Origin: a virus
Virus record (IMG/VR): IMGVR_UViG_3300043587_000032
Span: 1-61,315 of that record
Length of the DNA stretch: 61,315 nucleotides
Reading direction: 5' to 3' (one strand)
The first letter of the stretch is position 1. Each line of letters starts with the position of its first letter. Under the pieces are notes generated by a model, which worked only from the letters and a program-made list of their open reading frames with translations, did not search any database and was not told the origin of the DNA. Below are positions 1,766-59,448 of this stretch, one piece after another. A program made the position numbers and the translations under genes.

Positions 1766-1796
1766 AGAATACCCCCTAGCTAGGGGGTATGATCAA
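1766..1796 (-). promoter_or_regulatory. Operator-promoter with palindrome, drives P-loop gene
   Basis: A perfect 22-bp palindrome at 1769-1790 (C5 and G5 arms around TAGCTA) lies between a -35-like TTGATC and a -10-like TATTCT on the minus strand. The -10 ends six bases before the ATG at 1759, predicting a leaderless transcript. It is the most symmetrical member of the genome-wide operator family. Confidence 0.75.
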
Positions 1797-1839
1797 CCCT
1801 CACTGCGACGCGCCGTAGTCGGGTCGCAGGACGCCTGTC

Positions 1840-2103
1840 CTAGATCACGTCGAACCATCGAGCGAACCGCGCCGGAGGCATGTCGTTGTCGTGGTAGTCG
1901 AGCGTAACCACGACGTAGTGACCCGCTGTCACGATGCGCTCGAAGCCGCCATTAGGGAACGTGACGTGAAGGGCGCCTTCGGAGTCCACTGTGGCATCCA
2001 AACGCTCGGTTCCATTGATGGAGTCGATCAGATCGGCCACGGCCTCTAGGTTGGTTCCGGTCCACTGCTCGAACTCGATATTTTGGGTGGCGAAGTTAGG
2101 CAC
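1840..2103 (-). CDS. Hypothetical protein downstream of tail fibre genes
   Basis: An 87-aa acidic protein of alternating beta-strand character with no recognised motif. It is the last gene of the fibre/lysis block and begins 23 bases after the fibre gene, so it is probably co-transcribed. A chaperone or small tail-tip role is possible but unsupported. Confidence 0.65.
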   Translation of the reverse strand: MPNFATQNIEFEQWTGTNLEAVADLIDSINGTERLDATVDSEGALHVTFPNGGFERIVTAGHYVVVTLDYHDNDMPPARFARWFDVI

Positions 2104-2126
2104 AATCGCTCCTGAATTCGTAGGTT

Positions 2127-2684
2127 CTAGCCGACCTTGTAGACGTGGAATTCCGCGGGATCGAAGCTCCAGAGGCTACCTGTTGACGCGCCGTTGCTGT
2201 AGGCGTACGCGCAGATGGTGGCACCAGCCGCGAGCGGGTAGGCGCCGATGCTGGCCTCGGCCGACAAACCGGCTGACGTGAAGTTCCCGCTGATGTAATT
2301 CGAGCCGAGCGACGCCGCCGACGATCCAATGAAGACGTTCGAGGAGAAACCGCCCGTACCTGGCATGTAGTTACTCGCCGATAGGGCGTACAGGCCCGCT
2401 TGCGTCACGGTGAAGGTGTCGGTGCCATTCCAGGTGATCCCGGCGGCGGCCTGGATTGTCGAGCCGAACGTGAGCTTGTTGAGGCCGCCTGCAATCGTCT
2501 GCGATGCCGATGCCCGATAGGAGCCGCCATACACACCCTCGAGGGCGGTGACGCGCGCACCGAGAGCGGCATCGGCCGCATCCACGTAGGTCTTGTTCGT
2601 CAGGTCCGGGCCCGCGGTCGGCACGGCAGTGGTGGTGATCTTGTTGGCGCCCAGGTCTACCGCGCCCAGGAAGCGACGGCTCAT
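2127..2684 (-). CDS. Minor tail protein / tail fibre with jelly-roll-like C-terminus
   Basis: A 185-aa protein. The N-terminus (SRRFLGAVDLGANKI, then DLTNKTYVDA) is a common virion-anchoring motif of phage fibres. A short helical linker follows near residues 35-52. The C-terminal 130 residues are Gly/Ser/Ala-rich beta-strand with ITWNGTDTFTV, resembling C1q/TNF-like trimeric receptor-binding domains. The N-terminus resembles that of the upstream neighbour (TRKFLTAIDMTQNQI), suggesting both attach to the same site on the tail. Probably involved in host recognition. Confidence 0.75.
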   Translation of the reverse strand: MSRRFLGAVDLGANKITTTAVPTAGPDLTNKTYVDAADAALGARVTALEGVYGGSYRASASQTIAGGLNKLTFGSTIQAAAGITWNGTDTFTVTQAGLYALSASNYMPGTGGFSSNVFIGSSAASLGSNYISGNFTSAGLSAEASIGAYPLAAGATICAYAYSNGASTGSLWSFDPAEFHVYKVG

Positions 2685-2687
2685 GCG

Positions 2688-3824
2688 TCAGCCAACGATC
2701 ATCATCTGGTAGAAGTTCGTCACGAAGCCGGTCGTCGGAATCTGCACCACCAGGTTGTTGGCGTCAGTGCCGGACACCGGCTTGTTGTCGGCCTCGATCT
2801 GCTGCCCCGGGTCGGTGCCTGCCGAGCCGAATCGCAGCACGAACGCGGGGCACAGGTTGTTGAGACCGTGGTTGATAGTGACCGGCGTGTAGCCGCCGGA
2901 CGGTGCGCCGACCGTGAAGATCCCCGAGGTCGTGGTGGGGATCGCGAGCGGGCCGATCTTCCGGCCGACCACCAGCGGATCGATACCGGCAGTCGCACCG
3001 TCCGCGCCGACCGCCGCCATGCCGAGACCCGGGTTGAACCCGACCTTCGAGCCGACCACGGTGATGCCGTACCCGGCGGTGAGGTTCTGCGTGAACGGGT
3101 TCGTCCACACCTGCGGGTTCGTGTCGACAACGATCGCGCCGTTCGTGCCGGTGCCGGTCGCGGTCTGCATCCACAGGGTCCGCGCGGTGCCGTTGTAGCC
3201 CTCGACGACGGTCCCGGCGACGATCGCGCCGGTGTTGCCGGTCGGCGAGTCGGCGGGCCGGGTCATCGGGACCGCGGCGCCGTTCCACTGCCACAAGCCC
3301 ATCTGGCTGGTGGTGGTCTGTGCGGTGAGCAGGACACGGTCACCGGCGACCATGGTGCGGCCGTTGATCGCGGCGCCCGGCGCGGCAATCGACACATTGG
3401 CCAGGGCCACGATGTCGACGTGTTCCTTGAAGTCCATGCCGACCTGGATCCCGGCAATGGCTGTCTGGAACTGGGCGTACTCGACGGCTTGGCCGCCGGT
3501 GCTGGCCGCGGGGAGGTTCGAGAACTGCTGGCCGTTCATGTCCACCGAGGCGTTCGGCGGGAGCATGGACGCCCAGCGCAGGGCCTGCACGGCGGCGGTG
3601 AAGTCGGAGATCGTGCTCGCGGTCTGCGTGCCGGTGTGGGTCGCCCGGTTGCGCAGGTCGATCGCCACGCCGCCGATCTGGATCTTGACGGTGCCCGCGG
3701 TCGAGTCGAACCAGATGCGCCCGTCGGTGACGGTGCCGCCTGCGTTCCCGGCGATCGCCTCCAGGACCGCGTTGATGATCTGGTTCTGCGTCATGTCGAT
3801 CGCAGTGAGGAACTTGCGTGTCAT
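2688..3824 (-). CDS. Minor tail protein / tail fibre
   Basis: A 378-aa protein. The N-terminal anchor (TRKFLTAIDMTQNQI) is paralogous to that of the next gene. It is followed by a strand-rich region, repeated short Gly/Asn motifs and a conserved-looking C-terminal knob. Its start overlaps the stop of the upstream minor tail gene by ATGA and its stop is 3 bases from the next start, so the fibre genes are translationally coupled. Likely role: adsorption structure at the tail tip. Confidence 0.8.
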   Translation of the reverse strand: MTRKFLTAIDMTQNQIINAVLEAIAGNAGGTVTDGRIWFDSTAGTVKIQIGGVAIDLRNRATHTGTQTASTISDFTAAVQALRWASMLPPNASVDMNGQQFSNLPAASTGGQAVEYAQFQTAIAGIQVGMDFKEHVDIVALANVSIAAPGAAINGRTMVAGDRVLLTAQTTTSQMGLWQWNGAAVPMTRPADSPTGNTGAIVAGTVVEGYNGTARTLWMQTATGTGTNGAIVVDTNPQVWTNPFTQNLTAGYGITVVGSKVGFNPGLGMAAVGADGATAGIDPLVVGRKIGPLAIPTTTSGIFTVGAPSGGYTPVTINHGLNNLCPAFVLRFGSAGTDPGQQIEADNKPVSGTDANNLVVQIPTTGFVTNFYQMMIVG

Positions 3825-4387
3825 GAGCAGTACGCCCTTCCGGTCACGGGAGACGACCAGCGGAGGACGGTGGTCGAGAGATTCGGGTCGCTACGGGATC
3901 GCCATTCGATGCCGTTCGATTCGGCAGTGGGATCGAGCCCCTCGAGGGCTTCGATGACGGGGTGGAAACCCAGGTTGTGCGGGATGGTCCAGGTGTTGTC
4001 TGGCGCAGGCTGACTGAACTCGAACGTGCCGCCTGGCACGGTGGGACCCTCGGGATTCTCACCCGGTGGCAGTGAGACCAGCAGGTCACGGAGCTCGTAG
4101 GATCCGCCGTCGGGCATCCGGATCGCCCATTTGTGACCGCCGGGTGCGCAAGTCTCATCCACCAGGTAGTAGGTGTTGATCTGCTCGAACTCGGTGTTCG
4201 CGATCAGGGACGCGGTCCAGATGCCCGTGTGGTCGGTGTCAGCGGGGACGCGCTGGAGCACTTCGCCGACGCCGTTCAGGAGGAACGGATTGGCGGGGGC
4301 AATGAGGGCAATCCGCACTGTCACGTTCTGGAGGCCGCGGCCGTCGGCGGCTACCAGGGTGTTCGTCACCGTCCCGCGAACGACCAT
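3821..4387 (-). CDS. Minor tail protein
   Basis: A 188-aa beta-rich protein. Residues 1-80 resemble an Ig/transthyretin-like fold (RGTVTNTLVAADGRGLQNVTV). The C-terminal 60 residues carry the TWTIPHNLGFHP motif common in phage fibre domains. An excellent Shine-Dalgarno (GGAGGTGGAAG) precedes the ATG at 4387. The upstream RusA-like reading frame continues 149 bases into this gene. Confidence 0.75.
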   Translation of the reverse strand: MVVRGTVTNTLVAADGRGLQNVTVRIALIAPANPFLLNGVGEVLQRVPADTDHTGIWTASLIANTEFEQINTYYLVDETCAPGGHKWAIRMPDGGSYELRDLLVSLPPGENPEGPTVPGGTFEFSQPAPDNTWTIPHNLGFHPVIEALEGLDPTAESNGIEWRSRSDPNLSTTVLRWSSPVTGRAYCS

Positions 4388-4784
4388 CTTCCACCTCCGT
4401 GACTTTGAGGATCACGGTAGCGGTCGCCCGGTCGAGGGGGTCCTCGATGCGCGGCACGACTTGCGCGGAGGAGCGGCGGACGTAGCGCCAGTTGTCGTCT
4501 GGCCAGACACCGGCGGCGACCATGCCGTCGAGGATGGGCTTGATGGAGTCCGTTTGGTTGTCGCCGTCGGCGAGCCGGTTCGAGCCGGGGAACCAGAGGA
4601 GTTCGACATCTGCGCGCCCCAGCTCGAGAAAGCCGTGGGCTTGCTGCCAGTGCTTCGCAAGGTAGGTGATGTCCGACTTGACCGCTTTGTACTCGCGGTG
4701 CGCCGGTGACCAGTGCTTACGGCGGTTGGCGGACAGGGGCGGACGCAGGTACGGCAAGGTCAGTTCCCACGTCCGCCCCGTCAT
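4239..4784 (-). CDS. RusA-like Holliday junction resolvase
   Basis: A 181-aa reading frame. Residues 1-130 match the RusA layout: PPLSANRRKHW near the start, then ADVELLWFPGSN, then the acidic core DGDNQTDSIKPILDGM (about 75-90), and a VILKVTE strand. RusA enzymes cut branched DNA before packaging or during recombination. The family is usually about 120 aa; the last ~50 residues here are basic low-complexity sequence encoded out of frame inside the next gene. The start overlaps the holin stop by ATGA. A resolvase inside the lysis cassette is unusual. Confidence 0.72.
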   Translation of the reverse strand: MTGRTWELTLPYLRPPLSANRRKHWSPAHREYKAVKSDITYLAKHWQQAHGFLELGRADVELLWFPGSNRLADGDNQTDSIKPILDGMVAAGVWPDDNWRYVRRSSAQVVPRIEDPLDRATATVILKVTEVEDGRSRDGDEHPGSRRRPRPPERDSADCPHCPRQSVPPERRRRSAPARPR

Positions 4785-5146
4785 CAGAGCCGCCCGCTAC
4801 CGATGGTCTCGCCGCTGGCCGTCACCGGCGCCGTAACTTCCTTGCGGGTCGCAAGGGTGAGCACGGCGGCGATCGCGAGCATGGCCACAGACTGCTGCTC
4901 TGCGGTCCAGCCGAGCCCGAAGGCGATCCCGGCGGCGATGGCCGTCTTGAACACGACCACGATCGCGGCAACCCAGGTCCCGTCATGCAGCGCCGCAGCA
5001 CCGATGAACCCGAAGATGGCAACGGCCACCGCGGTGATGAGTCCCTGCTGCTCGATGCTCACGTGGATGAAGAACGCGCTGACGAACTGGATGAGGGCGG
5101 CAGCGGCGGCCGTCCACGCGAGCGGGTCGCGTCCAAGGATTTTCAT
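4784..5146 (-). CDS. Holin-like membrane protein
   Basis: A 120-aa protein with three to four hydrophobic segments (about residues 12-30, 37-55, 61-85, 93-108) and short polar ends, placed directly after the endolysin. Holins form membrane lesions that release or activate endolysin. I chose the ATG at 5146 (MKILGRDPLAW) because GAGAGG precedes it; a longer frame begins at 5215 but would overlap the endolysin end with polar sequence. The call rests on position and topology. Confidence 0.75.
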   Translation of the reverse strand: MKILGRDPLAWTAAAAALIQFVSAFFIHVSIEQQGLITAVAVAIFGFIGAAALHDGTWVAAIVVVFKTAIAAGIAFGLGWTAEQQSVAMLAIAAVLTLATRKEVTAPVTASGETIGSGRL

Positions 5147-5183
5147 GATCTTGCCTCTCGGTTGAGCAAACGTCGGATGTGGA

Positions 5184-6913: not shown

Positions 6914-6946
6914 AGCCTACCGTCTGTCCCCCCAGGATGGGGTGGA
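6914..6946 (-). promoter_or_regulatory. Degenerate operator upstream of the lysis cassette
   Basis: The 51-base gap between the helicase stop and the protease start holds C6 (6928-6933) and G4 (6939-6942) arms with one interrupted half. A TAGGCT-like -10 lies nearer the gene. It is a weak member of the operator family, and the gene keeps a ribosome site. Confidence 0.4.
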
Positions 6947-8257: not shown

Positions 8258-8260
8258 GTG

Positions 8261-9076: not shown

Positions 9077-9324
9077 TCCGCCGCACCGCCGTCGAGGGTG
9101 GCGTAGGCCATCTCGTGATCTATCATCGCCAACCGGATGTGTCCACGGAGGGCCAGCTCTTCCATTGCCGCGACAACCGCAGGCTCGAGGTCTGGGAGTG
9201 CGGCCAGGATCTCAGTGGTCTTGGCGTAGCGGCCGTTGCGTCGACCGAACTCGTCGAGCCAGGCCTTCAGGCCGCGCGCCCCCAAGGTGAGGGGACGGAT
9301 GTCGGGGCGCCTTGGTACACTCAT
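9073..9324 (-). CDS. Small winged-helix-like protein in replication operon
   Basis: An 83-aa protein. The region about 25-65 (TTEILAALPDLEPAVVAAMEELALRGHI) has the helix pattern of a small winged-helix domain. It is the first gene of the initiator-helicase operon and overlaps the initiator start. It may regulate or assist initiation; the function is unknown. Confidence 0.6.
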   Translation of the reverse strand: MSVPRRPDIRPLTLGARGLKAWLDEFGRRNGRYAKTTEILAALPDLEPAVVAAMEELALRGHIRLAMIDHEMAYATLDGGAAE

Positions 9325-11725: not shown

Positions 11726-11754
11726 ATCTTACCCCCTAAGTTGGGGGGACGCAA
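11726..11754 (-). promoter_or_regulatory. Operator-promoter for replication block
   Basis: -35 TTGCGT, a 17-base spacer made of C6 and G5 arms, and -10 TAAGAT on the minus strand; the -10 is seven bases from the start codon. One of the clearest members of the family. It should control the genes from 11718 downwards. Confidence 0.8.
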
Positions 11755-24086: not shown

Positions 24087-24120
24087 ATCGTAGCCCGTTC
24101 GGGCCCCCCAGGTCAGGGGG
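24087..24120 (-). promoter_or_regulatory. Variant operator-promoter within the connector genes
   Basis: -10 TACGAT six bases from the ATG, with C6/G5 arms (24104-24120) shifted so that they cover the -35 (CTGACC) rather than the spacer. It lies in the end of the upstream connector gene. The only family member inside the structural operon, and it departs from the usual geometry. Confidence 0.5.
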
Positions 24121-28942: not shown

Positions 28943-28971
28943 ATCTTACCCCCCAAGTTAGGGGGTGTCAA
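28943..28971 (-). promoter_or_regulatory. Operator-promoter, membrane gene 28718-28936
   Basis: -35 TTGACA (consensus), a 17-base spacer of C6 and G5 arms, -10 TAAGAT, six bases to ATG. It overlaps the stop region of the next upstream gene. Confidence 0.85.
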
Positions 28972-29942: not shown

Positions 29943-29972
29943 AATCTATCCCCCCAAAGTGGGGGGTGTCAA
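29943..29972 (-). promoter_or_regulatory. Operator-promoter (consensus form)
   Basis: -35 TTGACA, an 18-base spacer with C6/AAAGT/G6 arms, -10 TAGATT, six bases to ATG 29936. Identical to the site at 31946-31975. Confidence 0.88.
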
Positions 29973-31503: not shown

Positions 31504-31519
31504 GCCCCCGGCCGGGGGC
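31504..31519. terminator. GC palindrome after gene 31520-31939
   Basis: A perfect 16-bp palindrome (GCCCCCGGCCGGGGGC) abutting the stop codon. It may act as a terminator or an extra binding site, since its C5/G5 arms resemble the operator without the spacer. Confidence 0.45.
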
Positions 31520-31945: not shown

Positions 31946-31975
31946 AATCTATCCCCCCAAAGTGGGGGGTGTCAA
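31946..31975 (-). promoter_or_regulatory. Operator-promoter (consensus form)
   Basis: TTGACA, an 18-base spacer with C6/AAAGT/G6, TAGATT, six bases to ATG 31939; identical to 29943-29972. Confidence 0.88.
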
Positions 31976-33176: not shown

Positions 33177-33206
33177 AATCTATCCCCCCAAAGTGGGGGG
33201 TGTCAA
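33177..33206 (-). promoter_or_regulatory. Operator-promoter (consensus form)
   Basis: TTGACA, an 18-base spacer with C6/AAAGT/G6, TAGATT; six bases to ATG 33170. It overlaps the stop of the upstream gene. Confidence 0.88.
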
Positions 33207-33485: not shown

Positions 33486-33514
33486 ATGTTACCCCCCAAG
33501 GCAGGGGGACACAA
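33486..33514 (-). promoter_or_regulatory. Operator-promoter
   Basis: -35 TTGTGT, a 17-base spacer of C6/G5 arms, -10 TAACAT; ATG 33478 is at the expected transcription start. Confidence 0.78.
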
Positions 33515-33547: not shown

Positions 33548-33583
33548 GAAGCGGGCCCGCACCACCAGGCACGGACCCGCTTC
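33548..33583. terminator. Hairpin after whiB-like gene
   Basis: An 8-bp stem (GAAGCGGG/CCCGCTTC) with further partial pairing inside, overlapping the stop of the WhiB-like gene. Confidence 0.65.
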
Positions 33584-33809
33584 ACACCGAGACCCGCAGC
33601 GTCCGGCGTTCACCAGCCGAGAGGCCACCGAACACGCCGAACTCCTGCATCCCCAGCTCGGCCCGGCAGGACGCGGACACCGGGCACCGCGCGCACACCG
33701 CCTTGGCCTGCGCCACCTGCCGAGCACCGGGGCCGACCTCGGAGGCCGGGAAAAACAGCTCAGGGTCCACACCGCGGCACGCGGCCTCGACCCGCCAGTC
33801 CTGCACCAT
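33582..33809 (-). CDS. WhiB-family iron-sulfur transcription regulator 1
   Basis: A 75-aa protein with the four-Cys WhiB pattern: AACRG near residue 10, then CARCPVSASC (about 39-48) and the GVFGGLSAGERR turn (about 57-68), followed by a basic tail. WhiB proteins bind a 4Fe-4S cluster and act with host sigma factor; the mycobacteriophage TM4 homologue represses a host whiB gene and blocks superinfection. A second WhiB lies at 50875-51261. No operator palindrome is close upstream; a hairpin separates it from the gene at 33850. Confidence 0.88.
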   Translation of the reverse strand: MVQDWRVEAACRGVDPELFFPASEVGPGARQVAQAKAVCARCPVSASCRAELGMQEFGVFGGLSAGERRTLRVSV

Positions 33810-34565: not shown

Positions 34566-34595
34566 AATCTATCCCCCCAAACTAGGGGGTGTCAA
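34566..34595 (-). promoter_or_regulatory. Operator-promoter
   Basis: TTGACA, an 18-base spacer of C6/G5 arms, TAGATT, six bases to ATG 34559. Confidence 0.87.
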
Positions 34596-34831: not shown

Positions 34832-35049
34832 GACGCCACCGGCAGCGGTACCCGCTTGAACCCGCGGGTTCCCTCGACGCGCCACGCCTCGGGGTCCCTC
34901 TCCAGCGCGGCTAGGGCTTCCTGCGCCGCGCCGATCTGGTTGCGCAGGTACTCCTTCGCCTCCGTAATTGCGGCCTCTCGCGTGAGTAGGCCCCACATGC
35001 CGACGATCGGGTACGTCCCGAAGTAGATCTCCGTCACTGCGTCGGCCAT
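34828..35049 (-). CDS. Hypothetical protein
   Basis: A 73-aa protein with a strand-rich start and a long helix (REAAITEAKEYLRNQIGAAQ). TGATG-coupled to the HExGH gene upstream. Function unknown. Confidence 0.58.
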   Translation of the reverse strand: MADAVTEIYFGTYPIVGMWGLLTREAAITEAKEYLRNQIGAAQEALAALERDPEAWRVEGTRGFKRVPLPVAS

Positions 35050-35492
35050 CAGCGGATCATCCTGCCGGTCAGGGTGCCCAGCGCAGCGAGGTCGTGCGCG
35101 CAGCGATAGATCACATCCCACTCGTTGATCACGATCTGCATTGCGTCCGAGCGGGCTTCAGCTTCCGACAGGCCGTACGTGTCGGCGGCGGCCGCGAAGT
35201 CGGCGTAGTCCTGCCTGGACTCGTACGGGTCCGCTTCGCCCGCACCCTTGCCGTACTGCGTCTGGCGCCAGTATGTGGCGGCTTCGTGGCCCGCCATGAG
35301 CCCGACCAGGAAGCCCCGCTCCTGAGCGGCAGTGCCGTAGTCCTCACGGATAGTGCACTCGCCGTCGCCGCCGATCTTCAGCCGGACACGCTCGACGTGC
35401 AGCCCTGCGTGCATCATCGCCACGGCGTGCCCGATCTCGTGAGCGGAGATCTGAAGCTCCATCGGGCTCGGGCCCTGGTGTGCCTCGGTCAT
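35049..35492 (-). CDS. HExGH metalloprotease-like protein, copy A
   Basis: A 147-aa protein with SAHEIGHAVAMMHAGLHVER (about residues 19-38), the HExxH zinc motif in the M41/FtsH-like form HEIGHA. A helical C-terminal part (SEAEARSDAMQIVINEWDVI) follows and could supply the third ligand. It is about 40-45% identical by eye to the next upstream gene, a tandem duplication. There is no AAA domain, so it is a free-standing protease domain or a derived binding protein. Confidence 0.72.
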   Translation of the reverse strand: MTEAHQGPSPMELQISAHEIGHAVAMMHAGLHVERVRLKIGGDGECTIREDYGTAAQERGFLVGLMAGHEAATYWRQTQYGKGAGEADPYESRQDYADFAAAADTYGLSEAEARSDAMQIVINEWDVIYRCAHDLAALGTLTGRMIR

Positions 35493-35935
35493 CAGCGGAT
35501 CATCTCCCCGGACAGGCGCCCCATGCGGGCAAGGTCGTAGGCGCAACGCGTGATCACGTCCCACTCGCTGACGACGATCTGCATTGCATCGGAGCGGGCT
35601 TCGGCCTCGGACAGGCTGATGATGTCGGCGTAGCGCTCGAAGACGGCGTAGTCGGGGGCCGAATTGGCGGCGTCAGCACCGGCGCTCGGACCGAACTGCG
35701 TCTTGATCCAGTAGTCCTCGGCTTCGAAGCCCGCCAGCATCCCCGTCAGCCAGCCGCGAAGCCGCTCGTCGGGGATCTCCAGCCCCTTCTCCTTGATCGC
35801 GCACACGCCGCCGTCGCCGAACCTATCCAGCTTCACGTAGTCGACATGGAACCCGGCGGCCATCTGCGCGACGGCGTGGCCGACTTCGTGCGCGGCAATC
35901 TGGAGGTCCAGCTCGCCCAGTTCCGGCATGGTCAC
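35492..35935 (-). CDS. HExGH metalloprotease-like protein, copy B
   Basis: A 147-aa paralogue of the next gene, with AAHEVGHAVAQMAAGFHVDY near residues 14-33 and the shared C-terminal SLSEAEARSDAMQIVVSEWD. HEVGH keeps the zinc-binding pattern. The GTG start overlaps the upstream stop (GTGA); an ATG lies two codons later. The pair may cleave different host or phage targets. Confidence 0.72.
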   Translation of the reverse strand: MTMPELGELDLQIAAHEVGHAVAQMAAGFHVDYVKLDRFGDGGVCAIKEKGLEIPDERLRGWLTGMLAGFEAEDYWIKTQFGPSAGADAANSAPDYAVFERYADIISLSEAEARSDAMQIVVSEWDVITRCAYDLARMGRLSGEMIR

Positions 35936-37223: not shown

Positions 37224-37252
37224 ATCGTACCCCCCATCGAGGGGGGATACAA
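37224..37252 (-). promoter_or_regulatory. Operator-promoter between divergent genes
   Basis: -35 TTGTAT, a 17-base spacer of C6/G6 arms, -10 TACGAT on the minus strand. The plus-strand gene at 37269 starts 17 bases away, so the operator could act on both sides. Confidence 0.78.
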
Positions 37253-38165: not shown

Positions 38166-38194
38166 AATCTATCCCCCTATTCAGGGGTGGTCAA
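38166..38194 (-). promoter_or_regulatory. Operator-promoter, leftward half of a back-to-back pair
   Basis: -35 TTGACC, C5/G4 arms in the spacer, -10 TAGATT, six bases to ATG 38159. It lies 3 bases from a second, rightward operator-promoter. Confidence 0.82.
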
Positions 38195-38197: not shown

Positions 38198-38226
38198 TTG
38201 TGTCCCCCTCGTTTGGGGGGTATGTT
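38198..38226 (+). promoter_or_regulatory. Operator-promoter, rightward half of a back-to-back pair
   Basis: -35 TTGTGT, a 17-base spacer of C5/G6 arms, -10 TATGTT; six bases to ATG 38233. It shows that the same architecture serves plus-strand genes. Confidence 0.82.
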
Positions 38227-48962: not shown

Positions 48963-48992
48963 AATCTATCCCCCTTCGAAAGGGGGCTGACA
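48963..48992 (-). promoter_or_regulatory. Operator-promoter
   Basis: -10 TAGATT, an 18-base spacer of C5/TTCGAA-type/G5 arms and a weak -35 (TGTCAG). The palindrome is perfect through its centre. Confidence 0.75.
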
Positions 48993-49192: not shown

Positions 49193-49214
49193 CCCCCCTA
49201 ACTGGGGGGCAACT
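49193..49214 (-). promoter_or_regulatory. Operator palindrome with weak promoter elements
   Basis: C6/AGTTA/G6 arms identical in layout to the family, flanked by GAGTTG (-35 position) and TGCTAG or TAGGGT (-10 position). It overlaps the stop of gene 49198-49725. Confidence 0.55.
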
Positions 49215-50667: not shown

Positions 50668-50909
50668 CGGAGGTCCTCAATCTGTGTGGTGTCGAGCGAG
50701 ACGCAGGCGTTGAACATCTCGCTAGGGGATGCCGTGCAGTTCGCGGCGATCGCGGTGCCGGTGACGACGTTGGTATAGGTGGCCATGTCGTGCACGAGCT
50801 CGATGCCGCCGATGAGCGCCATGATGAGCATGGCCGGGCCGACCAGCCAGATAACCAGGTCTTTGAGGATCGAGTTATGCGGCTTGGCGGTGCGGGCCGT
50901 GGTGCTCAT
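50664..50909 (-). CDS. Single-pass membrane protein with paired cysteines
   Basis: An 81-aa protein: a basic N-terminus, a TM helix (LVIWLVGPAMLIMALIGGIE, about 18-37), and an outer part with CTASPSEMFNACVS. The outer Cys pair could form a disulphide. Led by the operator-promoter at 50949 with a leader of about 30 bases. Candidate surface-exclusion protein, unproven. Confidence 0.62.
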   Translation of the reverse strand: MSTTARTAKPHNSILKDLVIWLVGPAMLIMALIGGIELVHDMATYTNVVTGTAIAANCTASPSEMFNACVSLDTTQIEDLR

Positions 50910-51261
50910 CTGGAGTTCCGTTCGTCGCGGGACTTGCTGTCTCCAGTGATGTTACCCCCCAAAGTGGGGGGAGACAAGGGCCCTCGACCGGCGATCGGAA
51001 CAATTCTCGTAACGCCGTCTGGGTGTGGCCGCCCCACGTGCCGAACTCCTCGCGACGCTCCACCGCGCCCTGGAGGCACGCCAGCCTGATCGGGCAGTCC
51101 GTGCACATCGCCAAGGCGCGCTTGTTGTCCGCCGTGTAGGAGGAATCCGGGAACCAGGCATCCGGGTCGGCCTGCGCGCACACTGCACCCTGGTAGTCCT
51201 CCAGGGTGTGACCGATCTCGAAGTCCCACTTCAGGCGCTCTTCGTACGCGCCGATGCGCAT
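50875..51261 (-). CDS. WhiB-family iron-sulfur transcription regulator 2
   Basis: A 128-aa protein. AVCAQADPDAWFPDS, CTDCPIRLAC (about 53-62) and EFGTWGGHTQTALREL (about 72-87) give the four Cys and the G-x-WGG turn of WhiB. The last ~40 residues (after SPVEG) are non-homologous and are read through the operator-promoter at 50949-50977 into the next gene, an odd overlap. The start is ATG 51261 or the GTG one codon before. Confidence 0.86.
   Translation of the reverse strand: MRIGAYEERLKWDFEIGHTLEDYQGAVCAQADPDAWFPDSSYTADNKRALAMCTDCPIRLACLQGAVERREEFGTWGGHTQTALRELFRSPVEGPCLPPLWGVTSLETASPATNGTPDEHHGPHRQAA
50949..50977 (-). promoter_or_regulatory. Operator-promoter inside the 3-prime end of the second whiB-like gene
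   Basis: -35 TTGTCT, a 17-base spacer with C6/AAAGT/G6, -10 TAACAT. Transcript start lies about 30 bases before the ATG of the membrane gene, so it is not leaderless. The palindrome is part of the WhiB reading frame. Confidence 0.78.
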
Positions 51262-51539
51262 CACGATCGCCCATCAGGATCGGCGTCGAGCGCCTCGGTG
51301 AGCATGTCGCGCAACTCGCGCATGCTGGTCATGTCCAGCAGCGCAGGCATCGTGAGCGTGATCGGGGTGTCGCTGTTGAGGTGGCCGTGCAGGTAGAGCA
51401 CGCAGATCTTGTCTTCGGCGTGCCGCTCGACGCCGTCGTTGTCGATCGTGGCGGACACGCCCACGGCGGCGGTGACGGAATGAACGCACAGAGCGTTGAC
51501 GGGGATGTCCATGACGGAAGGACCGGGCAGGGGAGGCAT
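51261..51539 (-). CDS. Hypothetical protein
   Basis: A 92-aa protein: a strand-rich start (PVNALCVHSVTAAVGVSATI) and a helical end (TSMRELRDMLTEALDADPDG). AAGGAGCCCG precedes the ATG. The stop overlaps the whiB-like start. Function unknown. Confidence 0.62.
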   Translation of the reverse strand: MPPLPGPSVMDIPVNALCVHSVTAAVGVSATIDNDGVERHAEDKICVLYLHGHLNSDTPITLTMPALLDMTSMRELRDMLTEALDADPDGRS

Positions 51540-51962: not shown

Positions 51963-51990
51963 ATCTTACCCCCGGAATGGGGGGAAGGAA
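51963..51990 (-). promoter_or_regulatory. Operator-promoter, diverged -35
   Basis: -10 TAAGAT, C5/G6 arms, -35 TTCCTT. It drives the operon from 51931 through the second whiB-like gene. Confidence 0.68.
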
Positions 51991-52537: not shown

Positions 52538-52567
52538 AATCTATCCCCCCAAAGTGGGGGGTGTCAA
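52538..52567 (-). promoter_or_regulatory. Operator-promoter (consensus form)
   Basis: TTGACA, an 18-base spacer with C6/AAAGT/G6, TAGATT. Here the start codon is about 37 bases from the -10, so the mRNA has a normal leader with a ribosome site. Confidence 0.87.
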
Positions 52568-52623: not shown

Positions 52624-52649
52624 CCCCCCAGGTTGGGGGGCCCTATCCT
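52624..52649 (+). promoter_or_regulatory. Operator and rightward promoter of the translocase module
   Basis: C6/G6 arms at 52624-52640, then TATCCT as -10; six bases later the ATG at 52656 begins, so the message is leaderless. The -35 is poor. It lies about 55 bases from the leftward operator at 52538-52567, and both probably respond to the same factor. Confidence 0.65.
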
Positions 52650-52868: not shown

Positions 52869-53690
52869 ATGCGCCTGCCCACGCTCCCCGTAACCCGCCT
52901 TCGGCTGTTCGCCACCCTGCCGGTTGCGTCCGCCGCCATCATCTCGTTCGACTCGGTCCGCCACCTTGCGGAGTCCGCCGGGTTCGGACCGCTCGCGTGG
53001 CTCTTCCCGCTCACCATGGACGCCGCCGTGGCGTTCGGTACGGACCTGTGGATTCGGCGAAAGCAGTCCGCCGCGATGAGCAAGGCGCGCGCACTCGCGC
53101 TCACCGTCATGGCCGGGTCGCTGGTCGCGAACACCGTGGACCACTACATGACCGGATCGATCCTGGGCGGTCTGCTGGGGGCGGTCCCGCCGACCGTGCT
53201 CGCCTGGATGTTGCTGGTCCTGCATCAGCACGGTCTAGGCGAAGCGGACCAGGATGCACCGGACCAGACAGACCGCTTCTCTGGTCCCGGACCGGTCGCC
53301 ATCTCCTACACGGTCCCGCGGTTCCTTGCGGTCCCGCGGTCCACGGTCCACGTCGAATCGGACCGCGCCATGGACGCGACGGTCCGAGAACTGGTCCAGA
53401 TCGTCCGGACCGACGGCGAGCCCGGTCCGGTCCCGAACTGGGAGAAGCCGGACCGGACCGGGCCACTGCCGCAGCCGCGTAAGCGGACCAGCGCCGCCCG
53501 GACCCCCGCCACCACGGTCCGGCGGTCCGCCACCGCGAAGGCGCCCGAGGACCGCGAGATCGTCGCGTGGATCTCGGACCAGCCGACGGCGCCGACCAAG
53601 CAGCAGATCATGGACCGCTACCCGATCGGGTCCGGGCGCGCCTTGCGCCTGCGGACCGCCGCCACCGCGAAGGAGTCGACCGATGAGTAA
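52869..53690 (+). CDS. DUF2637 (SpdB-like) membrane protein with C-terminal DNA-binding-like tail
   Basis: A 273-aa protein. Residues about 10-120 match DUF2637: ASAAIISFDSVRHLAESAGF, GPLAWLFPLTMDAAVAFGTD, and further TM helices (VMAGSLVANTVDHY, VPPTVLAWMLLVLHQHGLGE). Residues 125-230 are low complexity and the last 45 (KQQIMDRYPIGSGRALRLRT) form a helix-turn-helix-like end. Such proteins sit beside TraB in conjugative actinomycete elements and form or regulate the transfer pore. The gene is rich in GGWCC words after 53216. Confidence 0.77.
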   Translation: MRLPTLPVTRLRLFATLPVASAAIISFDSVRHLAESAGFGPLAWLFPLTMDAAVAFGTDLWIRRKQSAAMSKARALALTVMAGSLVANTVDHYMTGSILGGLLGAVPPTVLAWMLLVLHQHGLGEADQDAPDQTDRFSGPGPVAISYTVPRFLAVPRSTVHVESDRAMDATVRELVQIVRTDGEPGPVPNWEKPDRTGPLPQPRKRTSAARTPATTVRRSATAKAPEDREIVAWISDQPTAPTKQQIMDRYPIGSGRALRLRTAATAKESTDE

Positions 53691-54430
53691 GGGCAAGCAG
53701 CAAGGCGGTGCGCTCGATATCGCCGCCGGTGCGCTGATGGCGAAGTTCTCCATCTGGGCACTGGGCAAGCTCGGCAAGGGCACCCGCCGCCTGGTCTTCC
53801 GGTGGCGGCGGGCCATCTCGCCGGTCCTGTTCGCCGGTCTCGTGTTCCTGCTCGCCGTGGTCCTGCGCGAGACGGTCCCGTGGCTTTGGTGGACCGCCGC
53901 GGTGCTGCCGGTCTGCGGCGGTCTGCTCGCCTACTTCGGACCGGTCCTGTCCGAGAGGTGGTCCGGTCTGGTTACGCGGCTGGTCCCGGCTGGCTTGGAC
54001 CGCGGCCGTGACGGCGTGCTGGACCGCCCGGTCGAGCGGATCTATCTCGCCGCGATGCTCACCACCATCGGGACCTACCTCGCGGTCCGGTGGGGTTTCG
54101 GTCCGAGCGAGTTCACCGGGTGGACCTGGAAGATCGGTCTGCTCGTGTTCGGCGGGTCCTGGTGGTACCACCGCCGCATCCGGACCGCCGGTCGCGCGGA
54201 CCGCGTTGCGAAGCGCTGGACCAAGTTCACGCGGTCCGACACGTGCCCGGCGAACCTGAAGCCGCTCGTCGGGTCCAAGGTCCTGAGTGCGACCGGCGAG
54301 GGTCGCAACTCGGTGCTGAAGGTCCGGGTTGCCGACGCCGGGACCGCCGCGAACGTCGAGCGTCTTGGCAACCCGCTCGCGGCGTATTTCAAGATGCGGC
54401 CGGGCTCGGTCCACATCAAGGGCGACATGG
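53216..54430. repeat. GGWCC-rich segment
   Basis: About 50 GGTCC/GGACC pentamers were counted by eye in about 1.2 kb, versus roughly five expected at this G+C and only two or three in the remaining 1.1 kb of the translocase gene. They fall in more than one codon phase and spread over two genes. Candidate DNA-recognition or transfer signal. Confidence 0.7.
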
Positions 54431-55596
54431 TGGACGCCGGGGTGGCCTGGTTCACCTTCATGCCGAAGGACCCGTGGTCGGGCAAGATCCCGCACCCGAT
54501 GCCCGAGCCGGGCTCGATCTCGCTGAAGTCGACCCGCGGCCGGTTCAAGATGGGGGAGCTCGCGAACGGCGACGACCTGATCTATCAGCTCCAGCACACC
54601 TTGGCCGTCGGCATGAACGGGTCCGGCAAGTCGATCTGGCTGCACGCGCTCATGGCCTGGCTGGTCGCCTGCTCGGACTGTCTGGTGGTCGCCATCGATA
54701 TGGCCGGTGGCGCGACTCTCACCGTGTGGCGTAAGGCGTTGAGTCTGCCCCTTGCGACTGACCTGGATTCGGCGATGGTGGTGCTGAACTCGGTGTTTGC
54801 GGTGATCGCGGATCGCGAGCGCCAGCTTGGCGTGGCTTCCGAACTCGATGATGACGCGGCCGACTCCTTCGAGCCGACGCGGGAAACGCCGTGGATGGTG
54901 TTGATCATCGATGAGTTCCCTGACCTGCTCGCGGAAGCGAAGACGGCCGGGGTCGAGAAGCAGGTGATCACCCTGCTCGGCCGGATCGCGAAGAAAGCCC
55001 GCAAGTGCGGAATCCGGCTGTTCTTCGCCAGCCAGAACGGCACCAAGGTCGACCTGGGCTCGAAGGAGCTTCAGGCGCAGCTCAGGGCCATTGTCGGACT
55101 CCAGCTCGACGTGCAGCAGAGTAAAAACCTGTGGGGCGAGCAGATGCGCATGGGGTGGAACTCGACGATCCTCCAGTCCGGACAGTTCCTGCTGAAGGAC
55201 GACGAACACACCATGCCCGCGATCGCGAAGGGTCTCTTCGTCGAGATGAAGGAGCGCCGCGAGCAGGCCAATAAGGCCTCTGAGCTGCACAAACAACTGG
55301 AGCCGTCAGCCAATGCCGCCTTGATCGGCATGGCGGGTTCATACCTGCCGCCGGAGATCGTGGTGCCCGCCGAGCCCGGCGATCCGATCCTGGAGTACCT
55401 GGCCACCGTCGATGGCACCGGCGCGCGGGCGGCCGACATCGTGGACCTAGTGCCCGGCGTGGGCTCGAAGGCCACCGTCTTCCGGCGGCTCGGGCGGCTG
55501 AAGGAGGAAGGGCTTGCGCACTCGCGCGGCGGCGTGTGGCACGCGGGGCCGGACACGCGTAACCCGCAGGACCGCGCGGACGAGTCCGCGGCGTAG
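53683..55596 (+). CDS. FtsK/SpoIIIE/TraB-like DNA translocase
   Basis: A 637-aa protein. Two pairs of TM helices (about 43-85 and 113-160) precede a RecA-like motor with Walker A GMNGSGKS (about 311-318), Walker B WMVLIIDEFPDLL (about 405-417) and a following FFASQNGTKVDLGSKELQ. A C-terminal winged helix (about 575-625, ARAADIVDLVPGVGSKATVF) is like the DNA-reading domains of FtsK and TraB. The layout fits plasmid TraB, which moves double-stranded DNA between mycelial cells. It overlaps the DUF2637 gene by 8 bases. Confidence 0.85.
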   Translation: MSKGKQQGGALDIAAGALMAKFSIWALGKLGKGTRRLVFRWRRAISPVLFAGLVFLLAVVLRETVPWLWWTAAVLPVCGGLLAYFGPVLSERWSGLVTRLVPAGLDRGRDGVLDRPVERIYLAAMLTTIGTYLAVRWGFGPSEFTGWTWKIGLLVFGGSWWYHRRIRTAGRADRVAKRWTKFTRSDTCPANLKPLVGSKVLSATGEGRNSVLKVRVADAGTAANVERLGNPLAAYFKMRPGSVHIKGDMVDAGVAWFTFMPKDPWSGKIPHPMPEPGSISLKSTRGRFKMGELANGDDLIYQLQHTLAVGMNGSGKSIWLHALMAWLVACSDCLVVAIDMAGGATLTVWRKALSLPLATDLDSAMVVLNSVFAVIADRERQLGVASELDDDAADSFEPTRETPWMVLIIDEFPDLLAEAKTAGVEKQVITLLGRIAKKARKCGIRLFFASQNGTKVDLGSKELQAQLRAIVGLQLDVQQSKNLWGEQMRMGWNSTILQSGQFLLKDDEHTMPAIAKGLFVEMKERREQANKASELHKQLEPSANAALIGMAGSYLPPEIVVPAEPGDPILEYLATVDGTGARAADIVDLVPGVGSKATVFRRLGRLKEEGLAHSRGGVWHAGPDTRNPQDRADESAA

Positions 55597-55670: not shown

Positions 55671-55686
55671 CCCCCGGACCAGGGGG
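55671..55686. promoter_or_regulatory. Degenerate operator palindrome
   Basis: C5/GGACCA/G5 arms in the 167-base gap after the translocase gene, between two hairpins. TAGATC follows on the plus side, so a short rightward transcript ending at 55756 is possible. No gene is led by it. Confidence 0.45.
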
Positions 55687-55711: not shown

Positions 55712-55756
55712 AAGGCCCTCCTTACCCCGGGAAATCTCAGGGAAGGAGGGCCTTTT
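55712..55756. terminator. Bidirectional terminator between convergent operons
   Basis: A 12-bp stem (AAGGCCCTCCTT/AAGGAGGGCCTT) followed by TTTT on the plus strand and TTT on the minus strand. Confidence 0.85.
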
Positions 55757-55763
55757 CGCAGCT

Positions 55764-56272: not shown

Positions 56273-56778
56273 CTGGCGAGCAGCTCGGCACCGACGACGG
56301 TGATGGCGCCGCGGACGCCGACGGCCTTGGCGTCGATCAGGGACTGGATTGCCCGGCGAGCCTGCGCACCCTCGAGGACGACCTCGGTGCCGGACACCAC
56401 GCGAACGCTCATGCGCTGAAGAACGGGATCAATGTGCAGGGTGCCCGCGTCGGCGTGCCGCAGCGCACCGAGCCGAAGGGGGGACTTGCGGGGCATGGCG
56501 CCCATGGCCTTGGCTCGCTTTCGCTCGTTGCCGAGATGGCTGCCGGTCTCCGAATTGCACGGGGTGCAGGCGGGACGGATGTTGCCGCGGACGTACCGGC
56601 CGCCCTCGACGCCGGGAGTGATGCGGTCCACCGAGATGGTCTCGTCGGTGACGAAGGTGCCACACCGGAAGCAGGGGGCCTTCGTGCCGTCGCCGAACTG
56701 CTGGAGCAGCCAGGCGCGGCGAATGCGGCGGGTTTGACTGGAGCCGCGGGAGTTGGTGTTCGAGGTACCTCGGGTCAT
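56260..56778 (-). CDS. HNH endonuclease with C-terminal extension
   Basis: A 172-aa protein. PCFRCGTFVTDETISVDRIT, YVRGNIRPACTPCNSETG (about 36-85) form a zinc-bound HNH nuclease core. The last 90 residues form a separate strand/helix domain (SVRVVSGTEVVLEGAQARRA). Free-standing nuclease, or one involved in packaging or degradation of competing DNA. Coupled to the gene at 56775 by overlap. Confidence 0.78.
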   Translation of the reverse strand: MTRGTSNTNSRGSSQTRRIRRAWLLQQFGDGTKAPCFRCGTFVTDETISVDRITPGVEGGRYVRGNIRPACTPCNSETGSHLGNERKRAKAMGAMPRKSPLRLGALRHADAGTLHIDPVLQRMSVRVVSGTEVVLEGAQARRAIQSLIDAKAVGVRGAITVVGAELLARWTK

Positions 56779-57080
56779 TCCGGCCGCCGAATGGACTTGG
56801 CTCGGGCGACCTCAACCAGCGCACCGGAGGGCGTGCGCTCCTCGTAGATCACGATGGTCTCGCTCGCGCCCTGAGCTTTGCGCAGCGCGTAGGCCTCACC
56901 TTCGGCGCGCAGCTGGAGCGCGTCCCGGCGGTGGAGCTCGGTGCGCAGGATCTCGACCTCCGCGAGGATGGGATCCCGCTCAACGCGGGCGGGGTGAAGC
57001 GAGTAGGCCTTTTTCGTTTCGTAGAAGCGGGCCAATTGATCGTTTCGAAGGTCGCGCACGCTGTCTTTGGTGAGGTTCAT
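56775..57080 (-). CDS. Hypothetical protein, leaderless
   Basis: A 101-aa helical protein (SVRDLRNDQLARFYETKKAY, then ILAEVEILRTELHRRDALQL) with a strand-rich end. The -10 TAGCAT is seven bases from the ATG at 57080. A longer frame starting 36 bases upstream would read through the promoter. Function unknown. Confidence 0.63.
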   Translation of the reverse strand: MNLTKDSVRDLRNDQLARFYETKKAYSLHPARVERDPILAEVEILRTELHRRDALQLRAEGEAYALRKAQGASETIVIYEERTPSGALVEVARAKSIRRPE

Positions 57081-57087
57081 GACGGGA

Positions 57088-57116
57088 ATGCTACCCCCCA
57101 TTTTGGGGGGTGACAA
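57088..57116 (-). promoter_or_regulatory. Operator-promoter
   Basis: -35 TTGTCA, a 17-base spacer of C6/AAAAT/G6, -10 TAGCAT; seven bases to ATG 57080. Drives the HNH operon down to 55764. Confidence 0.83.
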
Positions 57117-57119
57117 GCC

Positions 57120-57824
57120 CTACTTCCCGGCGAGCTGAGCGAACGCATCCAGGCCATTGCTCACGCCCGTCCACCACGGCCCGCCAGCCGCCGCCACCGT
57201 CACCACGGCCAGGACACCAGCCGCGGCAGTCAGGATCCACGTCGCAATCACCTCACCCTTGACGATCGTGCCCGGCAATCCCCCCGCACGGAACCGCAGC
57301 ACCGACGGGTAGCCGACAGTGAACCAGCGCTTGCCCTGCCGTTTGACCAGTGGCCACGCCGGGTGCGGCACGCCGGAGAGCGTGCAGGCGTCGCCGATGA
57401 ACCAGACGTGCGTCAGGCAGCCAACGGTCACCGAGGAGCCCAGGAAGATGCCCCACGCCGCGTAGGGCGTGAACTGGAGCGCCGCGTACAGGCCGCCGCC
57501 GTGGATGAGCGCAAAGGCGGTGGTGTGCGTGAACGTGCGGTGACAGCCGGTCGGCCGATCCTTCTCGGTGCGCGTGGCCTGGTAAATCACCTCGGACAGC
57601 CACCGGTAGAACCAGCAGATCGCGGGCGAGAGCAACGGGATCATCTTCGAGGCGACGGCTGGCTTGTGATCGATGTCCGGCATGAGTGCACACAGGGCCA
57701 CCAGGATGGCGTAGACGGCATAGATCCCAAGGTGGCGCGCTGCCCCCTCCAGGTCGGGCGTGGGCACGAGCGGGGCAACGAGCAGGCCGGACACCACGCC
57801 GGAGACGAAGTGTCCCTTACTCAT
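57120..57824 (-). CDS. YdjM-like (DUF457) membrane metal-dependent hydrolase
   Basis: A 234-aa protein with CALMPDIDHKPA near residue 48 (metal ligands), CHRTFTHTTAFALIHGG (about 95-111) and CLTHVWFIGDACT (about 136-148), plus four to five TM helices. This is the YdjM/LexA-regulated membrane hydrolase family, possibly acting on lipids. The ATG at 57824 was chosen, as GGAGGT sits about 11 bases upstream; a GTG four codons earlier is too close to it. Confidence 0.77.
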   Translation of the reverse strand: MSKGHFVSGVVSGLLVAPLVPTPDLEGAARHLGIYAVYAILVALCALMPDIDHKPAVASKMIPLLSPAICWFYRWLSEVIYQATRTEKDRPTGCHRTFTHTTAFALIHGGGLYAALQFTPYAAWGIFLGSSVTVGCLTHVWFIGDACTLSGVPHPAWPLVKRQGKRWFTVGYPSVLRFRAGGLPGTIVKGEVIATWILTAAAGVLAVVTVAAAGGPWWTGVSNGLDAFAQLAGK

Positions 57825-57862
57825 TATGTCGTCCACCTCCCCACGGTGTGTACAGTTCCATC

Positions 57863-58357
57863 ATGACCAGGACCCGCAAGCCCACGCTCACAATTGCCGA
57901 CCATGTCCACCTGGCGCGGAGCGCTGCCGTCGGCGATTGCTGGCCGTGGCAAGGGAACATCGGCGATCAGGGTTACGGCCGTCGAACGGTCGCACCTGGA
58001 GTCCAAGTGAAGGCGCACCGCCTGATCTATGAGACCTACGTCGGACCAATACCTGAAGACCACACGCTCGACCACCTGTGCCACACGCGGGACGAAACGT
58101 GTCGCAGTGGTCCGAAGTGTCCACATCGAAGGTGCATCAACCCGACTCATCTGGAGCCGGTCCCCCAGCTGGAAAACTGGGAGCGTGGCCGATCGAAGTC
58201 GCGCGAGAACCGCGACAAGCGCGTGTGCTCGAACGGTCACGCGCTTACACCGAGCAACACCTACCGGCATCGGGGTCGCGGGGGAAAGCTGTACCGCCGC
58301 TGCAAGACGTGCATTCAGGCTCAAAACCGAGCCAGCGTCCTGCGGAACATTGGCTAG
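57863..58357 (+). CDS. HNH endonuclease (plus strand)
   Basis: A 164-aa protein. CWPWQGNIGDQGYGRRTVAP, VKAHRLIYETYVGPIPEDHT and LDHLCHTRDETCRSGPKCPH, then CINPTHLEPV, give an HNH_3-type core (about 30-105). The C-terminal part has CSNGHALTPSNTYRHRGRGG and a final CKTC pair, likely a zinc-binding DNA-recognition segment. TACAGT lies six bases before the ATG, so it too may be leaderless. Homing-type nucleases look like this. Confidence 0.82.
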   Translation: MTRTRKPTLTIADHVHLARSAAVGDCWPWQGNIGDQGYGRRTVAPGVQVKAHRLIYETYVGPIPEDHTLDHLCHTRDETCRSGPKCPHRRCINPTHLEPVPQLENWERGRSKSRENRDKRVCSNGHALTPSNTYRHRGRGGKLYRRCKTCIQAQNRASVLRNIG

Positions 58358-58374
58358 CTGGGCAGGCGCAGTCA

Positions 58375-58623
58375 TCAGTCTTCGCATCCTTCGTGGACGT
58401 AGCGGGTGTCGTCGTCTTCGGTCACGCCGACAATGGAATCCCCCGGCGTGATGCGCTCTCCACACTCCGGGCAGCGGCTGAAGTAGTTCGCGGAGAAGAC
58501 ATCGCCGACCTGAACTTTGCGGCCCGCGGTCGAGCGCATCGGATCGATGTTGCTGGCGGGGCGGCAGTGGGCGCAGTCGGACTTGAACAGGTACGTCCGC
58601 TCGCAGCGCTCGAGCTTGGTCAT
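58375..58623 (-). CDS. Zinc-finger protein (PARP-type-like)
   Basis: An 82-aa protein with CAHC near residue 17, RCPECGERITPGDSIVGVTE and a C-terminal HEGCED. This looks like a small zinc finger. The stop of the next upstream gene overlaps its start. Function unknown. Confidence 0.62.
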   Translation of the reverse strand: MTKLERCERTYLFKSDCAHCRPASNIDPMRSTAGRKVQVGDVFSANYFSRCPECGERITPGDSIVGVTEDDDTRYVHEGCED

Positions 58624-58817
58624 CAGGTCCTCCGGAGTGAGGGCGGCGCATCGGCAAGCGGGTCATCGGGGACGGCGAGCCGGTTCTTCCAGCCGTCGGC
58701 CGGTACGGACCAGACCTGCGGCCATCCGCTGGTGATGTCGATATGCACCGGGAAGCCGGGGTGCTCGACCAGGAAGCACACCCGGTCCTTCGTCTCGACG
58801 GCGCAGCGTTCAGCCAC
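58623..58817 (-). CDS. Hypothetical small protein
   Basis: A 64-aa, strand-rich protein (DRVCFLVEHPGFPVHIDITS). The GTG start overlaps the upstream stop by 8 bases. Function unknown. Confidence 0.57.
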   Translation of the reverse strand: MAERCAVETKDRVCFLVEHPGFPVHIDITSGWPQVWSVPADGWKNRLAVPDDPLADAPPSLRRT

Positions 58818-58959
58818 CGGTCACCAGCCCTCGGATCCTGCGGGTCTCACCGTCGATCTCATCGAGAATCGCCAGCATGGCGCCGGATTCCATGTCATCG
58901 TCGGCGGCGTTCTCGAGGTCAGCGAGGAGCTGTGAGAGCGCGCATAGGGCCTGGTCCAT
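58810..58959 (-). CDS. Very small helical protein
   Basis: A 49-aa acidic protein (ALCALSQLLADLENAADDDM). TGATG-coupled upstream. Function unknown. Confidence 0.55.
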   Translation of the reverse strand: MDQALCALSQLLADLENAADDDMESGAMLAILDEIDGETRRIRGLVTGG

Positions 58960-59207
58960 CAGTGCTCCAGTCCGGCGCGGTAGTGAAGCGCGAGCGGAGT
59001 GATAGCGAACTCCGGGCAAAGGTAGCCGTCCGGGTCGCCGACGCGGTAGCCGTCGGCAGCGTAGGCCTGCCACATGACGTTCCCTTGGCGGGCGATGGTG
59101 CCGACGGGTTCGCCGGTGCGAGAGTTCGTCACGTCGTGCCGGTTGGCGATGTGCTCAACGTGCAGGTGATCGAGTTTGGATGCGGGGCCGTTCAGAACTG
59201 CGGTCAT
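58959..59207 (-). CDS. Hypothetical protein
   Basis: An 82-aa protein with LDHLHVEHIANRHDVTNSRT and DGYRVGDPDGYLCPEFAITP. ATGA-coupled upstream. Function unknown. Confidence 0.6.
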   Translation of the reverse strand: MTAVLNGPASKLDHLHVEHIANRHDVTNSRTGEPVGTIARQGNVMWQAYAADGYRVGDPDGYLCPEFAITPLALHYRAGLEH

Positions 59208-59413
59208 GGTGTGGTGACCTCTTTCCAGATGGGGGCGCACACCTGGGGCCGGAAGGGCTGCGCGCCCTGCTTGTTCCAGTGTTGCGCGTCACGCTTGTTG
59301 AGGTGCCGAATACCCGTACGGGCCGACTTCGGATTCAGGAAAACGTGGTCGCTCGGGTAACCGCTTTTGTCGCACGGCATGTCGTTCGCGTCCACGATCC
59401 GGTACAAGTCCAT
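59204..59413 (-). CDS. Hypothetical small protein, leaderless
   Basis: A 69-aa basic protein (DLYRIVDANDMPCDKSGYPS, then SARTGIRHLNKRDAQHWNKQ). The start is fixed by the operator-promoter at 59419, with the -10 five bases from the ATG. First gene of the block that runs to 58375. Confidence 0.6.
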   Translation of the reverse strand: MDLYRIVDANDMPCDKSGYPSDHVFLNPKSARTGIRHLNKRDAQHWNKQGAQPFRPQVCAPIWKEVTTP

Positions 59414-59418
59414 GGGTC

Positions 59419-59448
59419 GATCTTCCCCCCCAAATTGGGGGGTGTCAA
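59419..59448 (-). promoter_or_regulatory. Operator-promoter
   Basis: -35 TTGACA, C7/G6 arms, -10 AAGATC. It overlaps the stop of the gene after terL, dividing packaging from accessory genes. Confidence 0.8.

Follow-up and report, generated by a model that had tools for sequence, protein, structure and literature searches.

The virus record IMGVR_UViG_3300043587_000032, whose 61,315 bases form the window analysed here, ends in a 127-base direct terminal repeat and thus closes into a circle of ~61.2 kb. Scattered over it are 23 copies of a palindrome (21 strict, 2 weak; 17-bp consensus CCCCCYNNNNNRGGGGG), one of which lies in the promoter of g22, a gene for a 170-residue protein that is our candidate for the factor binding them. 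About twenty promoters of this phage carry this one mirror-image, 17-letter switch, through which a single phage protein probably silences many of the phage genes at once. The 108 window genes were called by a simple codon-usage script that rewards ribosome-binding sites, and the gene numbers (g01 onwards) are our own. Among their products, the terminase large subunit has counterparts in 1,192 phage records, every one at less than 60% identity and mostly from phages of Mycobacterium (469), Microbacterium (273) and Gordonia (190); the host group of these uncultured phages is apparently the actinobacteria. A near-DNA search with the first 25 kb of the window against phages and plasmids gave zero matches.

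The palindromic unit has the form C5-Y-N5-R-G5 and mostly spans 17 bp, with 16 bp at 1772, 51969 and 55671; at 6928 and 38173, one side has G4 instead of G5. All 23 places listed in an earlier note on this sequence carry it. The pattern CCCCCN{3,9}GGGGG matches 38 times, overlaps included, at 22 distinct places; 100 dinucleotide shuffles gave 1.49 matches on average and 6 at most. The strict form C5-N6/7-G5 occurs at 21 sites, whereas 40 Markov copies average 0.30 and never exceed 3. One C5..G5 place that the note did not list, at 31505, spans 14 bp and is without a promoter. By our own gene calls, 19 of the 21 strict sites are intergenic, compared with 7.6% of the window (binomial P ~1e-19). 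The arms of the eighteen 17-bp sites pair by choice of pattern; further in, positions 6 and 7 are paired too at 11 of the 18, and of six pairs tested in the flanks, one matches at 14 of the 18 sites and each of the others at no more than 4. The core is symmetrical, as the earlier note described it, with paired C5/G5 arms far above chance and without the asymmetry of sites of the mycobacteriophage L5 type, and the consensus in three lineages, CCCCCCAnnnTGGGGGG, reaches into the loop. The proposed likeness of the 13-mer GGGGGGTGTCAAG to the L5 stoperator, by contrast, dissolves on inspection: GGGGGGTGTCAAG consists of a TTGACA -35 hexamer with the palindrome directly next to it, and because many sites have TTGTGT, TTGCGT or TTGTCT beside the palindrome, the likeness comes down to a common -35 hexamer. 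A blastn search of phages with a 35-nucleotide (nt) operator-promoter returned one Bacillus phage match at E ~1, which we disregarded.

The earlier note had placed the palindrome in the promoter spacer, and at 18 of the 23 sites it does lie directly between -35-like (TTGACA, TTGTGT, TTGCGT, TTGTCT and others) and -10-like hexamers, mostly 17-18 bp apart. On the minus strand, this arrangement is found in the predicted leaderless promoters of g17 (11732-11748), g36 (28949-28965, upstream of the structural block), g39 (29950-29966), g45 (31953-31969), g48 (33184-33200), g49 (33492-33508), g52 (34573-34589), g62 (38173-38187, with one weak arm) and g99 (57094-57110), and on the plus strand in that of g63 (38204-38220), which stands back to back with the site at 38173. 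It recurs, again on the minus strand, before g02 as a perfect 22-bp palindrome (1769-1790), in the g22 promoter (15276-15292; TTGTGT-17-TACGAT), where g23 shares the operator, in the promoter of g82 (48970-48986), between the divergent genes g59, which is leadered, and g60 (37230-37246), and in the leadered promoters of g88 (50955-50971, inside the called 3' part of g89), g91 (51969-51984) and g92 (52545-52561). The last of the 18, before g106 (59425-59442, minus strand), has a start codon 11 bp downstream and a -10 element, GAAGAT, that is not canonical. Five sites fall outside this register: the weak operator before g09 (6928-6942, minus), the one before g31 (24104-24120, no strand assigned), one at the 3' end of g83 (49193-49209, minus), one before g93-g95 (52624-52640, plus) and a weak one between the ends of g95 and g96 (55671-55686, no strand assigned). 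The operators at 6928, 24104 and 52624, and similar ones in the loci L036 and L041, sit further upstream of the -10 element, over the -35 region, a minority placement that possibly represents a second register. After the operator at 49193-49209 comes TAGGGT, with TTG a few bases on, perhaps the start of an uncalled small leaderless gene. The start codon follows the end of the palindrome by 11-13 bp in 13 of the 23 cases, and site 52624, with 15 bp, makes a fourteenth, in agreement with the earlier estimate of about 14 leaderless genes.

The earlier note had also proposed looking for enrichment of the motif in related phages, and it is found there. Among eight IMG/VR contigs retrieved via the portal protein, the motif playing no part in the retrieval, C4-N7-G4 occurs in six, with 3 to 45 overlapping matches against 0-2 for a reversed control pattern; the two that lack it are 4-kb fragments. 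The 13 related contigs that we read, retrieved by portal, operator pattern or g22, hold 5 to 19 operator sites each. With a matrix trained on relatives only, all 23 window sites score at least 8 (the weak sites at 6928 and 55671 reach 13.8 and 8.4), and one other place, at 9279 inside g12, reaches 8. Seven named phages with related terminases contain 0, 1, 0, 0, 0, 0 and 1 strict sites. When we scanned for TTGACACCCCCN7GGGGG, 56 stretches turned up, and a further scan gave 19; from both we checked 21 new contigs of at least 21 kb for a g22 profile match and for the number of sites, which includes a few overlapping matches: ten carry at least three sites and eleven carry one or two.

In the window and its 13 relatives (14 contigs), we counted 106 distinct promoter-operator sites with a downstream gene, repeated identical promoters being excluded and, for the distances, also sites with a promoter score below 5. 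The first in-frame start lies 5-8 nt from the -10 element at 56 of them, 9-24 nt at 4, 25-45 nt at 33 and elsewhere at 13. Called starts of the short-distance class are ATG in 58 of 58 cases, with a ribosome-binding-site-like sequence in 4 of 58, and such a sequence precedes 36 of 36 called starts of the long-distance class, a count that is partly circular given what the gene caller rewards. The distance is therefore bimodal and separates a predicted leaderless class from a class with normal leaders, with the same operator in both. Activators of the MerR type act at promoters whose spacer is lengthened to 19-20 bp; most fitted spacers here are 17 or 18 bp.

Which protein might read this operator? 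The earlier note named none; the candidate put forward here, from its genomic association and predicted fold, is g22 (14750-15262, minus strand), itself a predicted leaderless gene with its own operator 13 bp upstream. It diverges across that one operator from g23 (15312-15743, plus strand), an HNH endonuclease gene (PHROG 740, E 1.4e-19); the operator lies just before the likely ribosome-binding site of g23. Relatives of g22 with 43-44% identity occur in three contigs (G007, G012, G003), a profile of three members finds two more (G004 and G006, E ~1e-8), and a viral scan with g22 yields 12 loci. Searched by tblastn with three members, 50,697 phage records gave no relative. At all 12, and in G004 and G006, an operator-promoter stands directly upstream of the g22 homologue, whose start codon follows 12-13 bp beyond the operator, with a longer leader in G004/G006. 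Of 71 gene families present in at least 4 of the 14 contigs, 13 have any upstream operator, and four always have one within 150 bp upstream: g22 (12/12), g23 (12/12), g59 (7/7) and g60 (7/7). Of these four, the distant contigs G004/G006 hold g22 and g23 only, the divergent pair g59/g60 not being seen there. The association extends to the new contigs, since five of the ten with at least three sites encode a g22 relative (G031, G032, G033, G040, G041), including all four that exceed 40 kb (G032, G033, G040, G041). The first g22 profile finds G031 (E 9e-55), G041 (8e-22), G032 (4.5e-15) and, weakly and in the C-terminal half, G033 (2.8e-4); widened by G041 and G032, it finds G040 (7e-13) and G033 (2e-7). 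An HNH gene diverges from the g22 homologue in 12 contigs and in four distant ones (G041, G040, G033, G032).

The g22 family is predicted to consist of two ribbon-helix-helix (RHH) units fused in one chain. In the AlphaFold2 model of window g22 (mean pLDDT 73; RHH blocks mostly 83-93, 71-73 where the strands begin), the order strand-helix-helix occurs twice, at residues 16-24, 25-37 and 42-56 and again at 117-125, 126-138 and 143-157; in the shorter G004 homologue (mean pLDDT 84.9; RHH blocks 93-97), it occurs at 22-30, 31-43 and 48-60 and at 82-90, 91-103 and 108-120. The best VIA-align matches are chains of the F-plasmid relaxosome (Z 9.3 over 102 residues at 3.2 A; Z 9.4 over 99 residues at 3.3 A), taken to be TraY from the description in PMC12117103 rather than from the chain label, followed by AvtR (Z 7.0 and 7.3) and DndE (6.7 and 6.5); single-chain Arc reaches Z 5.1 with the G004 model. 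Among 14 distant members, strand 2 has an invariant Arg-Phe and strand 1 a Glu conserved to at least 90%; E20 and R121 are conserved strand residues of window g22. Such residues may point to the DNA and would suit contacts with G and C.

A self-regulating repressor encoded by these phages, g22 and its family, likely has the palindrome as its operator, and the use that we consider most probable is the shut-off of early and accessory genes rather than the maintenance of lysogeny. We infer binding, repression and timing from the motif, its promoter register, the bimodal start distances, their conservation, the co-occurrence with g22 and the operator upstream of it, all read from sequence, together with the predicted fold. 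We envision that each g22 chain folds its two unequal RHH units into one pseudo-dimer, whose two-stranded sheet would enter the major groove at one C5/G5 arm; since a C5 arm lacks self-complementarity, a chain whose two strands differ would be a natural reader of it. Two chains would then occupy the two arms, with 12 bp from centre to centre. With the operator placed between the -35 and -10 elements, bound g22 would sterically block RNA polymerase at these host-type promoters, and some twenty mostly leaderless or short-leader units, g22 itself included, would be switched off together as the protein builds up in infection. Cro and Arc provide a model for such shut-off of early and accessory genes by an accumulating repressor. 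With distinctly less confidence, we suggest that fused-RHH proteins of this family, one chain with two unequal strands reading one C5/G5 half site, may be the single master switch that silences most early or accessory promoters, its own included, in phages without recognised lysogeny genes, the operator being an obligatory part of mostly leaderless promoters.

Each component has counterparts in known systems. Many-operator phage regulons are established, the phiC31 repressor with its conserved inverted repeats and P1 c1 being cases of one repressor with many scattered operators near early promoters, and so are fused RHH proteins. Among the former, the stoperator system of cluster A mycobacteriophages such as L5 likewise has one repressor, with up to ~30 sites spread over an actinophage genome, some inside promoters, as summarised in parts of PMC6550527 (see also PMC9283540); according to PMC6550527, those sites lack symmetry, share one orientation for the most part and are mainly found away from promoters, whereas the site described here is symmetrical and mostly in the promoter spacer. 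AvtR of Acidianus filamentous virus 6 has two tandem RHH motifs in one chain and represses its own gene, as stated in portions of PMC5569661. It resembles g22 in being virus-coded, in its tandem RHH arrangement, in having several genome sites and in the predicted fold, and by those portions it differs in its archaeal host, its operator ATnnTnnTAnnACnTT and its eight potential sites; we saw no sequence relation between the two. TraY of the F plasmid holds a whole RHH dimer fold in one chain, according to sections of PMC12117103, and is the closest structural match, but it is there a relaxosome part at oriT rather than a phage-wide repressor, and its identity to g22 in structural alignments is 8-12%. 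The combination seen here, the g22 family and a G/C-run operator in leaderless promoters were not found in Pfam, PDB sequences or the literature searched, and none of the titles and abstract openings examined on stoperators, RHH phage repressors, actinobacteriophage RHH proteins, AvtR, TraY, leaderless operators and C-rich palindromes describes such a system.

Several observations weigh against assigning the operator to g22. Operator-bearing contigs exist in which it was not found: G027, G030 and G037 (23-32 kb, 4-9 matches) lack it by both profiles, G035 and G036 (22-26 kb, 3 and 5 sites) by the narrower first profile only, and none was found in G009 and G014 (23-30 kb, 7 and 10 sites), all of these contigs being short. 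A 58-residue match to the g22 profile in G009 (E 0.02) was not counted. Nine of the 11 new contigs with one or two sites lack g22 by the first profile; weak matches over 45 positions (E ~1e-5) in G026 and G034, which have a single strict site apiece, were set aside as probably spurious after viewing the frames, and if true, they would be g22-like proteins without a regulon. In G041, G040, G033 and G032, the g22 relative stands behind a palindrome that is imperfect or only 15-16 bp long; this weakens the rule but would fit a repressor that shuts its own promoter last. In two distant phages, at L171 (4313-4858, minus) and L173 (14775-15188, minus), one operator arm is degraded in the promoter of the g22 relative while other sites are intact, which suggests that the repressor gene itself has a weaker operator. 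The structural matches have weak Foldseek E-values (best 0.03-0.05), VIA-align Z scores below 10 are in the range that can reflect a common arrangement, no Pfam RHH family, these being short and divergent, is matched by 12 g22 members at E up to 10, and no PDB sequence matches the family. Finally, g22 could be no more than a conserved target within the regulon; g23 has an equal record, and the caller's preference in the 14-contig survey for starts behind an operator bears on both 12/12 counts. Since the 12 contigs represent about five lineages, several of them nearly identical, that record is strong but not twelve-fold evidence and cannot alone separate g22 from g23.

It is conceivable, though unlikely, that g22 activates or acts in both directions, or that the factor is g23, the WhiB protein g50 or a host regulator and g22 a conserved target only. 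AvtR activates or represses depending on its concentration, as portions of PMC5569661 report, and many -35 hexamers here are imperfect (TTGTGT, TTGCGT) and could need help; many others are TTGACA with 17-18-bp spacing and should need no activator. The equal record of g23 speaks for g23, and g50 (33582-33809, minus; Pfam E 3.7e-19) is a WhiB protein, but its relatives occur in 3 of the 13 sequences compared. A phage-coded repressor of the CsoR/RcnR/FrmR type was considered and rejected, PF02583 being absent from the phage (0/1, with control genomes positive in 8 of 14). A PHROGs scan that covered 30 of the 108 window proteins turned up no immunity-repressor family.

Alternatively, g22 may be the factor and hold a lysogen, a pseudolysogen or an extrachromosomal, plasmid-like prophage silent, a use of the same circuit that we regard as improbable. 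The earlier note suggested it, with one factor that could silence accessory genes as in a lysogen or plasmid state; one factor and many accessory genes agree with what we find, but the state is not supported. In its favour are the many accessory promoters with a common operator, and a DUF2637 gene followed by one for an FtsK/SpoIIIE-like ATPase (52869-55596, plus), on the strand opposite to most genes, the ATPase having weak relatives on 39 plasmid records (31 Streptomyces) and also in phages. These two genes keep a plasmid-like state conceivable. On the other side, none of 11 contigs searched, a number that includes fragments, yielded a member of the tyrosine integrase (PF00589), serine recombinase (PF00239) or ParA-type (PF13614) families, and 126 matches from a genome-collection scan, pattern-based and reaching fairly close relatives only, included zero g22 relatives. 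Together, these two results make shut-off during infection likelier than lysogeny. That the palindrome instead acts as a nucleic-acid hairpin, an insulator or a read-through terminator, seems very remote. Its C5-6/G5-6 arms and 5-7-nt loop could form a strong hairpin if transcribed from upstream, but its place is before the inferred start, in a fixed register inside most promoters and with TAnnnT, not a run of T, behind it, and the three-lineage consensus includes loop positions. A repressor of the g22 family remains our preferred reader of the operator.

Elsewhere in the window are genes for a DnaB-like helicase, an ERF annealing protein, HNH nucleases and a WhiB protein, the last being g50. 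A second small protein (50906-51274, minus) has WhiB-like cysteines by eye, Pfam and PHROGs giving no family, and g55 and g56 (35049-35929, minus) are adjacent, similar proteins, g55 being weakly M50B-peptidase-like below the Pfam cut-off.

If g22 is the repressor, these uncultured phages would gain a testable regulatory circuit of one gene, one operator and ~20 promoters. The analysis names a previously undescribed candidate repressor family, and the operator may aid the prediction of start codons for leaderless genes in these phages. It would also offer a case in which an operator and its repressor can be traced together over distant lineages.

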